DNA of 20,364 nucleotides, from positions 1-20,364 of the IMG/VR virus record IMGVR_UViG_3300018426_000208; one strand, 5' to 3'. Positions 14,953 through 19,887 of this stretch are shown one piece after another (within the stretch, counting starts at the first letter, position 1; the number at the start of each line of letters is the position of its first letter). The translations under genes were made by a program, and so were the position numbers. The notes beneath the pieces were generated by a model that saw nothing but the letters and a program-made list of their open reading frames with translations, was not told where the DNA came from and searched no databases. Source of the stretch: a virus.

Positions 14953-14963
14953 TCTAACTAAAT

Positions 14964-15311
14964 ATGGGCATGAAGAGACCCATCTGTGGCGCCTGCAGGC
15001 ACAACCTATGTGCCATCAACTACAAACGCAATGGCAAGACACACTACCGTAGCCGTTGCATGGCCTGTGCCAACAGCCGACGCAAGATACGCCAACCGGA
15101 TCCGAGATGGAGGAGCAAGGGATATGTCAAGAAGAAGACCTGTGACCTGTGTGGGTTCCGTGCCAAGCATGGTAGCCAGATCATGGTCTATCACATGGAT
15201 GGCAATCTCAACAATGCTGACCTGTTGAATCTGCGTAGCATCTGCCTCAACTGTTCCGCATTGGTACAGCGCCAGTCAGCATGGAAAGTGGGAGATCTGA
15301 TTCCTGATTAG
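14964..15311 (+). CDS. HNH-like zinc-binding protein
   Basis: 115 aa on the strand opposite its neighbours. The N-terminal half has Cys pairs CGAC (C8, C11), C16 and CMAC (C32, C35). The C-terminal half has CDLCGF (C60, C63), then VYHMDGNLNNADLLNLRSIC and CLNC (C94, C97). The HMDGNxxN core resembles the HNH nuclease loop, with H77 in the place of the general base. The usual third His after the last CxxC is Ser98, so activity is uncertain. Similar Cys-rich HNH-like proteins without that His occur in marine phages. ATG 14970 is an alternative start. Its stop codon overlaps the stop of the dNMP kinase, tail to tail. It may be a free-standing mobile endonuclease or a small DNA-binding protein. 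Confidence 0.8.
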   Translation: MGMKRPICGACRHNLCAINYKRNGKTHYRSRCMACANSRRKIRQPDPRWRSKGYVKKKTCDLCGFRAKHGSQIMVYHMDGNLNNADLLNLRSICLNCSALVQRQSAWKVGDLIPD

Positions 15312-15913
15312 CAGTGCTGTTTGAGCAACTGATCTACCTGGCGGTAGAGATCGTCTGTGGTTCCGTTGTTGTCCAGTGTGCGGTCAAAGTCAGTGCCGAT
15401 CCAGTCATACTCGGAACGATGCACGCCCAACTCCTGTAACTTGTTGATGTCATTGGCCTCGGCATGTGTGTACCAGTCTGGCCTGTCACCCCTGACGACT
15501 TCCACGCATATGGCACCCAGTCCACGCAACATCTTGACCTCGTTCTTGAACCTGACGTCACTGATGACTATGTTGTCATCGGTCTTCCTGAGTTTGTTCT
15601 CCAGGCTTGCCAACCACATGTCATCGTGGAAGTGTGCCCTGATGACATCCGTGCCCACGTGCTGTAATATCCAGCGAGGTGTCAGGTGTGGCATGTCCAA
15701 TCTCTTGGCCCACCATTCGTCCACTTCCTCACGCCACTTGCGACTGGATTTGGAACGTCCTTCGACCATTTCCCTGTCCCAACCGAACATGTTGCATATG
15801 GCATCCTTGAGGTTGTTGGCGAAACTGTCTCGCCTGTATTCGTGTGTGTTGACCAGGTAGTCCGCCAATGTGTCCTTGCCCGATCCTATGAGTCCGCTGA
15901 TTGCTATGATCAT
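15308..15913 (-). CDS. gp1: Deoxynucleoside monophosphate kinase (T4 gp1-like)
   Basis: 201 aa. The P-loop GLIGSGKDT lies at residues 7-15, followed by an ADYLV helix, as in T4 gp1 (SGKDT). Later are KWREEVDEWWAKRL, RWILQHVGTDVIRAHFHDDM, and the strand IVISDVRFKNEVKMLRGLGA followed by VEVVRGDRPDW. The end matches the dNMP kinase fold that phosphorylates dNMPs to dNDPs for phage DNA synthesis. The ATG overlaps the exonuclease stop (ATGA), so both share the sigma70-type promoter at 16441-16469. Its stop overlaps the HNH-like gene by 4 nt. It is an early-function gene sitting among late structural genes. Confidence 0.9.
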   Translation of the reverse strand: MIIAISGLIGSGKDTLADYLVNTHEYRRDSFANNLKDAICNMFGWDREMVEGRSKSSRKWREEVDEWWAKRLDMPHLTPRWILQHVGTDVIRAHFHDDMWLASLENKLRKTDDNIVISDVRFKNEVKMLRGLGAICVEVVRGDRPDWYTHAEANDINKLQELGVHRSEYDWIGTDFDRTLDNNGTTDDLYRQVDQLLKQHC

Positions 15914-16434
15914 TTTATCTTGTTGATTCCCAGGTGTTTAATACATGATTGTAACATCTGGATCTGTCTTTTGCAATCATCTAGGGCATGGTGGCTTGCC
16001 GATTTGACCTCAGGCATGTCCGGCCACAATGAATAGACTGTCCTGCAATCATGCACCCTCCAGAACTTCCAGTGCAGGTTCTGCCCTAATTCCTTGTAGG
16101 CATGTTCCAGTATGTTCATGTCAAAGGTGGGACCATTGGCCCATATCCTTTCACTGTGCCATATCAATTTGCCCAGATCTTCCAGGCACTCATGCAATGG
16201 CCTGCGACCCACGTCCTCGAACACCTCACGTTGTGCCTCCGGTGCCTGGTGTGCCCACCACTCAACGGTGGCATCATCCACCTTGCGATTGGGTTGGCTT
16301 TCCGTGGTGACCCTGGCATAGAAGTGCCTTTCTGGCCAGCCGTTCTGCAAGGGATCAAACACCTGTGCCGCGATGGTCATGATCACAGCGTCGTGGTCTG
16401 TTGCCAGTGTTTCTATGTCAATCATCAAATCCAT
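15910..16434 (-). CDS. DEDDh 3'-5' exonuclease (T4 DexA-like)
   Basis: 174 aa from ATG 16434. Motif I is MIDIETL (D6, E8). VDDATVEWWAHQAPEAQREV resembles the STIEWWKNQSPEAR block of T4 DexA and Rv2179c-like exoribonucleases. Motif II is NGPTFDMNIL (D105) and motif III is HHALDDC (H148, D153), so the four-acid DEDDh site is complete. DexA degrades DNA 3' to 5', whereas Rv2179c-type enzymes act on RNA, so the substrate is not decided. A longer frame begins with TTG at 16452, but that lies within the promoter, so ATG 16434 is taken. It is co-transcribed with the dNMP kinase. The predicted transcript starts at the A of the ATG, and there is no Shine-Dalgarno. Confidence 0.9.
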   Translation of the reverse strand: MDLMIDIETLATDHDAVIMTIAAQVFDPLQNGWPERHFYARVTTESQPNRKVDDATVEWWAHQAPEAQREVFEDVGRRPLHECLEDLGKLIWHSERIWANGPTFDMNILEHAYKELGQNLHWKFWRVHDCRTVYSLWPDMPEVKSASHHALDDCKRQIQMLQSCIKHLGINKIK

Positions 16435-16440
16435 GCTATT

Positions 16441-16469
16441 ATTATACTGCAAACTGGATTTTGTGTCAA
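16441..16469 (-). promoter_or_regulatory. Perfect-consensus sigma70 promoter (TTGACA-17-TATAAT)
   Basis: On the minus strand TTGACA (16469-16464) is followed by a 17-nt spacer and TATAAT (16446-16441), both exact consensus. It fills the 36-bp gap between the basic-protein stop and the exonuclease ATG. Six nt after TATAAT comes the ATG, so +1 coincides with the A of the start codon. It is an early promoter by type, read by unmodified host RNA polymerase. Confidence 0.92.
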
Positions 16470-17662: not shown

Positions 17663-18415
17663 TCAACTGGCTGATGGTAGGGTGTAGGTGGCCTTGATGA
17701 TGATCAGGTTGCTGTTGAATCGTCCATTCACTGGCGTGCCAGTGGTCTTGAGCTCATCAAACAGTTTGCGTCTGGACGGCTTGTCCGCCAGGCTCAACTG
17801 TGGCAGGAACTGTTCCGGCTTGCGTAGTGTCTTCTGTGTGGACTTCTTGGCGTCAAAATTCAGTATGCTGGTGCCCTTGACCATGAACACCTTGTTCTGG
17901 GCATCGGCCACGTAGTATTGCAGTTTGCGGTTCTTGGTGTTGTACACCCACATCTCACTGGACTCCAGTATCTTGGTGGGATCCTCGGTCTTGAGATTCA
18001 GTTCCGGAAACTCGCTGAGCAGTTTCAGTTTCCTCACCACCTTCTCCGGCGGTCTTGGTTTCCTGCGTTTGACTCCTTCCTTGGAATCCTTTGAATATGC
18101 CTCTAATTCGCTTATAATCTCCCTACAGTAAGAGATCATGTTCTTCTGCTGGTCCTTGGTAGCCCAACTGTATCCCTCGCTTAGAACCTTGTCTTTGTTG
18201 GTCACAGAGGCATTCAGTTCCTTGATCTGTTTCTCCCACAGATCCTTGATCATCTTGATCTGCTTGGCCGGTAGGTCATATCTGGCCAGTATCTCCTGTA
18301 TGCCCTGGGGTTTCTCGCTGTCCTGTATGTCGCCCTCGATGTAGTTGTCGAACACCTCGTTGATCTTGCCCACGGCGCAGGCCTTGCTCTCTTCCACTGA
18401 TCTCTTGAGTGCCAT
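17663..18415 (-). CDS. Conserved hypothetical protein, 250 aa
   Basis: Starts MALKRSVEESKACAVGKINE. The N-terminal half is helical and charged (PAKQIKMIKDLWEKQIKELN). A basic linker (KRRKPRPPEKVVRKLKLL) leads to a beta-rich C-terminal half (EMWVYNTKNRKLQYYVADAQ, then KVFMVKGTSILNFD and a basic stretch, ending GRFNSNLIIIKATYTL). I associate this with marine T4-like phages but know no function. The ATG at 18415 overlaps the stop of the 87-aa gene (TGATG). The longer frame from 18523 lies inside that gene and is rejected. Together with the 87-aa gene it should be transcribed from the sigma70-type promoter at 18685-18713, which suggests early expression, though late read-through is possible. Confidence 0.8.
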   Translation of the reverse strand: MALKRSVEESKACAVGKINEVFDNYIEGDIQDSEKPQGIQEILARYDLPAKQIKMIKDLWEKQIKELNASVTNKDKVLSEGYSWATKDQQKNMISYCREIISELEAYSKDSKEGVKRRKPRPPEKVVRKLKLLSEFPELNLKTEDPTKILESSEMWVYNTKNRKLQYYVADAQNKVFMVKGTSILNFDAKKSTQKTLRKPEQFLPQLSLADKPSRRKLFDELKTTGTPVNGRFNSNLIIIKATYTLPSAS

Positions 18416-18678
18416 CACAACAGTTTCCCCATCATGATCATCTTTTGATAGTCTGCTATCATTGTGTTGCATTTCTCCTGTAATTCTATAAAAGTGTGCG
18501 TCGTCTTGTGATGTCGCCTGCACTGAATTTCTGCTGTACTTAACTCAGTAACCAGGTTACTGATATTTTTGTTTATCTTCTCCAGGTCCATTCTGACATG
18601 ATAAGGCAGGTTTTTGATGTCTTTTTGCAGTTCATGATCCACTCTTGCCCAATCTTGTGAGGTGTCAATTCGTAGCAT
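18415..18678 (-). CDS. Small coiled-coil protein, 87 aa
   Basis: Begins MLRIDTSQDWARVDHELQKD. Nearly all helix, with heptad-like hydrophobic spacing (LEKINKNISNLVTELSTAEI, then LQEKCNTMIADYQKMIMMG), so it probably oligomerises. It has two cysteines and a His/Arg patch (CRRHHKTTH). No family is recognised. The ATG lies 6 nt after the -10 hexamer TAAAAT, so the mRNA is predicted to start at the A of the ATG with no ribosome site. Its stop overlaps the 250-aa gene start. The promoter type suggests an early protein. Confidence 0.75.
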   Translation of the reverse strand: MLRIDTSQDWARVDHELQKDIKNLPYHVRMDLEKINKNISNLVTELSTAEIQCRRHHKTTHTFIELQEKCNTMIADYQKMIMMGKLL

Positions 18679-18684
18679 CTCACT

Positions 18685-18713
18685 ATTTTACCACTTTTGT
18701 ATTTTGAGGTCAA
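18685..18713 (-). promoter_or_regulatory. Sigma70-type promoter (TTGACC-17-TAAAAT)
   Basis: On the minus strand TTGACC (18713-18708), a 17-nt spacer and TAAAAT (18690-18685) differ from consensus by one base in each box. As at 16441-16469, exactly 6 nt separate the -10 box from the ATG (18678), placing +1 on the start codon. Confidence 0.82.
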
Positions 18714-18724
18714 CTCTTTTAGGC

Positions 18725-18732
18725 GATAAATA
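18725..18732 (+). promoter_or_regulatory. Late promoter box GATAAATA for gp14-gp15
   Basis: The plus strand reads GATAAATA. The predicted start near 18738 gives a 16-nt leader before the gp14 ATG. It lies back to back with the minus-strand sigma70-type promoter, whose -35 box ends only 11 bp away. Confidence 0.78.
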
Positions 18733-18753: not shown

Positions 18754-19887
18754 ATGCCACGATTATCATTATACCGATCAAACAAGACCAATGACTTCAA
18801 GTTCCTGGACAAGACCATCAGCGAGATGTACACGGTTGGCGGTGCGGACATATTCGTCCACAAGTACATGGGACCCAAGATCGTCGGTGACAGTTCGGTC
18901 AGAGATCAGGGCGACGTCACACAACCCACATACGACACAGAAGATCCACTGAACGTGGAGGACTTGTTGTTCCTGGAGAACAGGAACAGGAACTACGATG
19001 ATGACATCTATGTCATGCGTGGAGTGTACAACGTGCAGGACATCGACTTTGACCTGTCACAGTTTGGTCTGTTCCTGAATGGTGACACGCTGTTCGTCAC
19101 TTTCCATTACAATGACATGATAGATTCACTGGGTCGCAAGTTGACGGCCGGTGACGTGTTGGAATTTCCCAATCTCAAGGACTACCATCCATTGGACACC
19201 AACGACCTGATACCCAAGGCATTGCCCAGGTACTACGTGGTTCAGGATGCCGCCTTCGCGGCTGAGGGCTTCAGCCCGACCTGGTTACCACACCTATGGC
19301 GTGTCAAGGTCACACCGATGCAGGCCACACAGGAGTTTGATGACATCCTGAACAAGCCGATCGATCCGGACAATCCAAGTGCGGGCACCATCGAAGACTT
19401 CGTGTCAATGAAGAAGAAGGATCTGGAGATCAATGATGCCATAGTGCAACAGGCAGAGGTCGAGGTTCCACGCAGTGGTTATGACAACACAGCATTCTAT
19501 GTGACGGCAACGGTAGATGACGAACCGGTCAAGCCAGGCACCACACCATCAGTGGACGGCTACCTGGTGGGATACATGACCGGCAACAATGTTCCGCCCA
19601 ACGGACTGCCCGTGACATCGGGCGTGAGCTTTCCCGCCAATCCAGGCAGTGGCGACTACGCACTGAGGTTGGATTACTTCCCCAACAGGCTGTTCAGATT
19701 TGATGGCACCAGATGGGTCAAGGTAGAGGATGGCGTGAGAACAGAATTGACACCGGGTGATACAGACAACAAGACACTGAAAGAATCATTCCAGAGCAAC
19801 ACAGCAACGGTACAGACGACGGACAGGGGCAACATACCAAGTAGCCAATCGCTGTCTGACCTGTTGAACCCCAAAAAGGATAACTAA
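18754..19887 (+). CDS. gp14: Neck protein (T4 gp14-like) with C-terminal extension
   Basis: 377 aa compared with 256 in T4. The N-terminal ~200 residues show the gp14 pattern: VGGADIFVHKYMG, DPLNVEDLLFLENRNRNYDD, a strand LFVTFHYNDM, GDVLEFPNLKDYHPLDTND and YYVVQDAAFAAEGFSPTWLP, then HLWRVK. With gp13 it completes the head-tail connector. Residues about 235-335 form an extra segment (TAFYVTATVDDEPVKPGTTP, then GDYALRLDYFPNRLFRFDGT followed by RWVKVED), similar in style to module B of the sheath insertion. The C-terminus is polar and probably extended. It is transcribed from the late box at 18725, and its stop overlaps the gp15 ATG (TAATG). Confidence 0.88.
   Translation: MPRLSLYRSNKTNDFKFLDKTISEMYTVGGADIFVHKYMGPKIVGDSSVRDQGDVTQPTYDTEDPLNVEDLLFLENRNRNYDDDIYVMRGVYNVQDIDFDLSQFGLFLNGDTLFVTFHYNDMIDSLGRKLTAGDVLEFPNLKDYHPLDTNDLIPKALPRYYVVQDAAFAAEGFSPTWLPHLWRVKVTPMQATQEFDDILNKPIDPDNPSAGTIEDFVSMKKKDLEINDAIVQQAEVEVPRSGYDNTAFYVTATVDDEPVKPGTTPSVDGYLVGYMTGNNVPPNGLPVTSGVSFPANPGSGDYALRLDYFPNRLFRFDGTRWVKVEDGVRTELTPGDTDNKTLKESFQSNTATVQTTDRGNIPSSQSLSDLLNPKKDN

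Follow-up and report, generated by a model that had tools for sequence, protein, structure and literature searches.

We found a sigma70-type promoter docked on the start codon of an 87-aa open reading frame (ORF), at positions 18713..18676 (minus strand) of a viral DNA record of 20,364 nt, the whole of which is called the window here. RNA synthesis from a sigma70 promoter begins approximately 7 nt past the -10 box, which here would place +1 on the A of the ATG; thus, judging from the layout of the boxes, this promoter very probably starts its RNA at that A, or within 1–2 nt of it, and yields a leaderless mRNA. The first-pass annotation had described TTGACC-N17-TAAAAT-N6-ATG without a clear Shine-Dalgarno (SD) sequence, a description that is exact once the minus strand, which it did not state, is supplied. 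What it had missed was the meaning of the 6 nt, namely that they equal the distance from the -10 box to +1, so that the ATG is the predicted 5' end of the transcript. The elements of this locus are:

18713-18708, minus strand: -35 box TTGACC of the reported promoter, kept in relatives
18690-18685, minus strand: -10 box TAAAAT of the reported promoter, TAAAAT or TATAAT in relatives
18676..18684, minus strand: 6-nt spacer AGTGAG and the ATG (18678-18676), with the predicted +1 at the A of 18678
18415..18678, minus strand: 87-aa ORF, function not assigned, predicted leaderless, N-terminus conserved
17663..18415, minus strand: phrog_11903 gene, function not assigned, its ATG overlapping the stop of the 87-aa ORF

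The two boxes are 17 nt apart, inside the 16–18 nt expected of sigma70 promoters, and scored 10 of 12 against the consensus, and a TG dinucleotide ahead of TAAAAT makes the latter an extended -10. This was the sole sigma70-type promoter found on its strand upstream of the 87-aa ORF, which lies only 75 nt from a divergent gene. An upstream start of the ORF is excluded by an in-frame TAA within the -10 box. The ORF had no PHROG match.

A twin promoter, with the same spacer and the same distance to the ATG, precedes an exonuclease gene elsewhere in the window:

16469-16464, minus strand: -35 box TTGACA of the twin promoter
16446-16441, minus strand: -10 box TATAAT of the twin promoter, 17 nt after TTGACA
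16434-16432, minus strand: ATG of the twin promoter's gene, after the 6-nt spacer AATAGC
15910..16434, minus strand: exonuclease (phrog_255), predicted leaderless, ATG 6 nt past the -10 box
15308..15913, minus strand: deoxynucleoside monophosphate kinase (phrog_139), its start overlapping the exonuclease stop

The twin scored 12 of 12. Direct reading of the sequence revealed no SD before the ATG at either site, the position being filled by the -10 box. Both promoters headed a list of 31 sigma70-type sites from a scan of the window, and no other site in the record matched TTGAC-N18-TANAAT-N6-ATG exactly. Of 500 dinucleotide shuffles of the window, one contained a single match and none contained two, which bears out the earlier argument that an identical spacer and 6-nt distance at two genes are not a coincidence.

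The placement was then followed through a clade sample of 1.35 Mb, made up of 12 related virus records read in pieces and the window. Among 1520 ORF starts, -10-like hexamers were found 47 times at a distance (d) of 6 nt from the start codon vs. approximately 9 times at most other distances, and 21 of the hexamers at d=6 were accompanied by a -35 box matching at least five of six positions. A test free of ORF calls, in which the distance to an ATG was measured after 145 promoters of the form TTGAC-N17-19-TANAAT, gave 7, 28 and 4 ATGs at d=5, 6 and 7, respectively, with 0–5 at each distance from 8 to 20 and approximately 3 at most other short distances. The peak was sharp, falling to 1–3 at d=8. 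Such a scan of N6 spacing against shuffled sequence had been set beforehand as the check that could refute the idea; the 12 related records and the window showed a clear N6 excess (28 sites observed vs. 0.4, sd 0.6, in 30 shuffles). With a strict pattern (N5-7), matches were present in 13 of 14 records, on a single strand per record, whereas the reversed control gave two matches. Looser boxes yielded 50 sites with d=5-7 spread over 33 protein clusters, and the signal is therefore not due to one duplicated gene. When ten of these clusters were compared with PHROGs, four received a name (helicase, endonuclease, exonuclease and phosphoribosyl transferase), three hit only families without an assigned function, among them phrog_11903, to which the window gene at 17663..18415 belongs, and three had no match.

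T+A-rich upstream regions do produce many weak -10 boxes, and it could be argued that promoter-like strings in AT-rich intergenic DNA have fallen into this alignment by accident. This explanation was rejected on the shuffles of both the window and the clade. It is also contradicted by conservation, as the spacing is kept among exonuclease relatives while the letters of the spacer vary, and we regard its probability as close to negligible.

The start codons at d=6 were 28 ATG, 1 GTG and 2 TTG. Leaderless initiation depends on or favours AUG in E. coli and Caulobacter, according to the available text of PMC9031893, and the AUG-only excess at this distance thus fits the leaderless reading.

A second class of promoters in the clade showed a comparable arrangement at a distance of its own. 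Of 256 unique NATAAATA boxes, 35 were followed by an ATG at d=5, two by GTG and one by TTG; before removal of duplicates, NATAAATA-N5-ATG occurred 36 times vs. 8.7 (sd 2.9) in shuffles. Ten of these genes were compared with PHROGs, and those named included virion structural, baseplate, ParB-like and heptose-metabolism proteins. The late promoters of phage T4 (TATAAATA) are served by the gp55 sigma factor, and the clade shares with T4 both the NATAAATA boxes and gp55-like proteins: phmmer detected gp55-like ORFs in 3 of the 12 records (G001, G003 and G004; E 5e-8 to 9e-7) and none in the 20-kb window fragment. The T4 late box ends at -6, while the sigma70 -10 box ends at -7. Distances of 5 and 6 nt would therefore both put +1 on the A of the ATG. 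That two unrelated promoter types, at different distances, lead to one predicted start is the strongest argument for leaderless mRNAs. T4 itself, unlike the clade, has no N5 ATG peak at its late boxes (2 of 65), from which ATGs are mostly 21–29 nt away; for the sigma70 class, its three matching promoters are too few to serve as a control.

Conservation was assessed at both window loci. For the exonuclease we used the best 80 of 262 related loci, leaving out L064, which has no upstream sequence, and adding the window. The -10 box was located 6 nt (50 loci) or 7 nt (21 loci, one group in which this distance is fixed) before an in-frame ATG at 71 of 80 loci, the window included, and in 34 of 42 distinct upstream variants. 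Two loci that fit by eye were kept out of the 71, namely L014, with a second TATAAT at 7 nt, and L068, with TACACT at 6 nt. Longer leaders were found at seven loci (6 of 42 variants): L019, L054 and L055 have an AAGG sequence 8–9 nt before a TTG start, and the other three variants, L031, L032 and L057, are ambiguous cases. In L055, the old leaderless ATG persists but opens a frame of approximately 11 codons, and the TTG start with its AAGG comes after it; the leader was perhaps gained there through local insertion or duplication. In a more distant exonuclease group (L067-L086, e.g., L079), the stretch from the -10 box to the ATG is often the nearly palindromic GTGCTATAATCAGCAC, in which the -10 is extended and the -35 is poor; this element could alternatively serve as an operator.

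At the 87-aa ORF, the promoter was found 6–7 nt before the ATG at 11 of 15 related loci. L090, L093 and L053 have the old promoter displaced to approximately 39 nt upstream, with a candidate TTGACT-N17-TAAAGT-N7-ATG adjoining the ATG, while L051 carries TTTACT-N16-TACACT-N6-ATG. These replacement -10 boxes are weak, the TAAAGT of the first three matching at 4 of 6 positions.

The same alignments bear on whether the promoter-adjacent ATGs are true starts at all, or whether translation begins further downstream on an mRNA that has a leader. In the exonuclease, codon 4 or 5 is indeed another ATG, and it is conserved across relatives. However, the residues ahead of it are conserved too, and the 87-aa ORF, whose N-terminus is conserved in relatives of 63–79% identity, offers no second ATG before codon 30. 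Neither GTG nor TTG is enriched at d=6. A downstream start was rejected on the conserved N-termini of the two proteins, and we judge it very unlikely.

In a wider comparison, IMG/VR viral contigs were scanned with four patterns, and the scans were judged by the fraction of ATGs opening an ORF of 40 codons or more, not by absolute counts. Among the matches listed, such ORF-opening ATGs made up 115 of 163 for N6, 56 of 118 for N8, 24 of 122 for N10 and 40 of 119 for N14. A further 247 promoters, in loci fetched for other distances, had an ORF-opening ATG at d=6 in 19 cases and at d=7 in 10, the other hump consisting of leaders of 25–33 nt. N6 ORF starts were present at 96 loci, again among the matches listed; 65 of these loci encoded at least one clade protein and 51 at least three, and much of the wider signal therefore comes from the same or a neighbouring lineage. 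The genes at these wider N6 loci include a primase; polymerase, ligase, J-domain and RNase H proteins were also recognised there by eye.

The raised share at N8 suggests that some transcripts in general viral contigs may carry short leaders. Applied to the clade, this would mean a leader of 1–3 nt translated by 70S binding or scanning, with the promoter held tight to the gene and the AUG not strictly terminal. The exonuclease group fixed at d=7 and the fact that transcription starts shift by 1–2 bases speak in the same direction. Against it stand the sharpness of the clade peak at d=6 and the separate peak of the late class at 5, and we consider a short leader of this kind unlikely. The preferred reading remains a leaderless mRNA that begins at the A of the AUG or within 1–2 nt of it.

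Docking on the ATG is one of two modes and not a universal rule. In the clade, an ATG at d=5-7 followed 34 of 121 strong sigma70-type promoters (approximately 28%) and was absent at the other 87. In the other mode, the ATG of an ORF of at least 40 codons is located approximately 22–35 nt away (85 sites), and an SD-like tetramer was present at 58 of these 85 sites vs. 7.1% of 23,888 background ATGs. The first-pass annotation had seen in the 6-nt distance a rule for early genes: the shared placement holds, but the generality was rejected, as most promoters have leaders, and docking also at late promoters (5 nt) shows that the geometry is not restricted to early genes. That the N6 genes are expressed early is suggested by their promoter type and gene functions. 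Among cultured relatives, no peak was observed in Atu_ph07 (400 of 490 kb examined), and PA5oct showed a weak peak for late promoters only (8 of 145). Syn9 had no peak.

The window encodes the terminase large subunit, tail sheath, tail tube-like and other virion proteins. By terminase, its nearest cultured kin belong to the PA5oct group of Pseudomonas phages (53% identity); a DNA search of a phage collection with the locus gave no match. Late-type promoters are also present in the window:

18725..18732, plus strand: late-type promoter GATAAATA, divergent, with a 21-nt leader to the ATG at 18754
18754..19887, plus strand: virion structural protein (phrog_11591), oriented away from the reported promoter
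14957..14972, plus strand: degenerate late-type box ACTAAATA, then 5 nt and ATG 14970 of a small ORF

The 87-aa ORF and the phrog_11591 gene run in opposite ways from the 75-nt stretch and thus form a divergent pair. In the G013 counterpart, 55 nt separate the divergent ATGs, one of which has a sigma70-type promoter 6 nt before it and the other a late box 6 nt upstream. Orthologues of the small ORF at 14970 carry NATAAATA-N4-6-ATG. The window has seven exact NATAAATA boxes, none of them with an ATG at N5; at six an ATG lies at a distance of 8–28 nt, in several cases with an SD, and the seventh is not near any gene start. At its other end, a late box GATAAATA (842-824, minus strand) precedes by 8 nt the ATG of a gene leaving the window, and the distance is 5 nt at its counterpart in several relatives.

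On the mechanism suggested by this layout, host RNA polymerase would read TTGACC/TAAAAT and begin transcription at 18678, approximately 7 nt beyond the -10 box, and ribosomes would begin at the 5'-terminal AUG without an SD. The exonuclease promoter (16469..16432) would act in the same way. The lineage as a whole would use host-type promoters 6 nt (5–7) before the ATG at genes of DNA metabolism and of unknown function, and phage late promoters (NATAAATA) that often lie 5 nt before it.

Several known systems resemble this arrangement in part. Bacterial leaderless 'TA-led' genes, as described in the available text of PMC3160421, have a TA-rich -10 box approximately 10–12 bp before the start codon and no SD; the -10 box has this distance at both window sites and at the clade peak, and there, as here, leaderless status was deduced from position only. 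The present case differs from that account in that it concerns T4-related phages, that the -35 boxes are clearly of the TTGAC type and that a phage-specific late class occurs at a distance of its own. In the lytic Thermus phage phiYS40, middle and late mRNAs are mostly without leaders, as far as the available part of PMC3594737 goes; the leaderless classes there are the middle and late ones in a Thermus host, whereas here sigma70 and T4-type late promoters are involved and SD-led genes coexist within each promoter class. The lambda cI mRNA, named in PMC9031893, begins at its AUG. It comes from one repressor gene in a temperate phage, in contrast with the dozens of genes predicted leaderless here. 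Phage transcripts are often leaderless according to the corresponding part of a paper on AR9 (PMC5312081). From these partial accounts, leaderless phage mRNAs as such (lambda cI, phiYS40) are already known, and what looks new is the docking of two promoter classes on the ATG in a T4-related lineage. We found no paper describing such an architecture in the open-licence literature, a scope outside which most subscription journals fall.

Translation initiation on leaderless mRNAs, which has received little study, thus becomes accessible to testing in a set of aquatic viruses. Most work on leaderless translation concerns individual genes or hosts like mycobacteria. The lineage would supply dozens of natural leaderless genes, from two independent promoter classes each at its own distance to +1, and natural gains and losses of a leader at one orthologous gene could reveal when and why a virus drops its ribosome binding site. 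Annotators of uncultured phages would obtain a simple rule for correcting start codons and finding promoters.

We tentatively suggest, as a possibility short of an even chance, that this large T4-related aquatic lineage runs a two-channel programme. Leaderless genes (replication and nucleotide genes under host-type promoters, some virion genes under late promoters) would be expressed beside SD-led ones, and translation components carried by some members (ribosomal protein bS21, tRNA-Met and a permuted tmRNA) may shift the weight between the two during infection. Genes for bS21 were present in 3 of 15 records searched (G002:C1:1181-1339, G013:C1:22083-22238 and G004:C1:89457-89621). The permuted tmRNA of G004 (L239 17980-18305, minus strand; Rfam beta_tmRNA, 129 bits) is located near several tRNA genes, and the beta_tmRNA match hints at a betaproteobacterial host. 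CAT-anticodon tRNA genes were found at L239 15959-16032 and 19001-19075 (minus) and at L202 1394-1470 (minus). Initiator tRNAs are marked by a C1:A72 mismatch and three G-C pairs in the anticodon stem; the tRNA-Met of G004 at L239 15959-16032 showed an apparent C1:A72 mismatch by eye, without the three G-C pairs.
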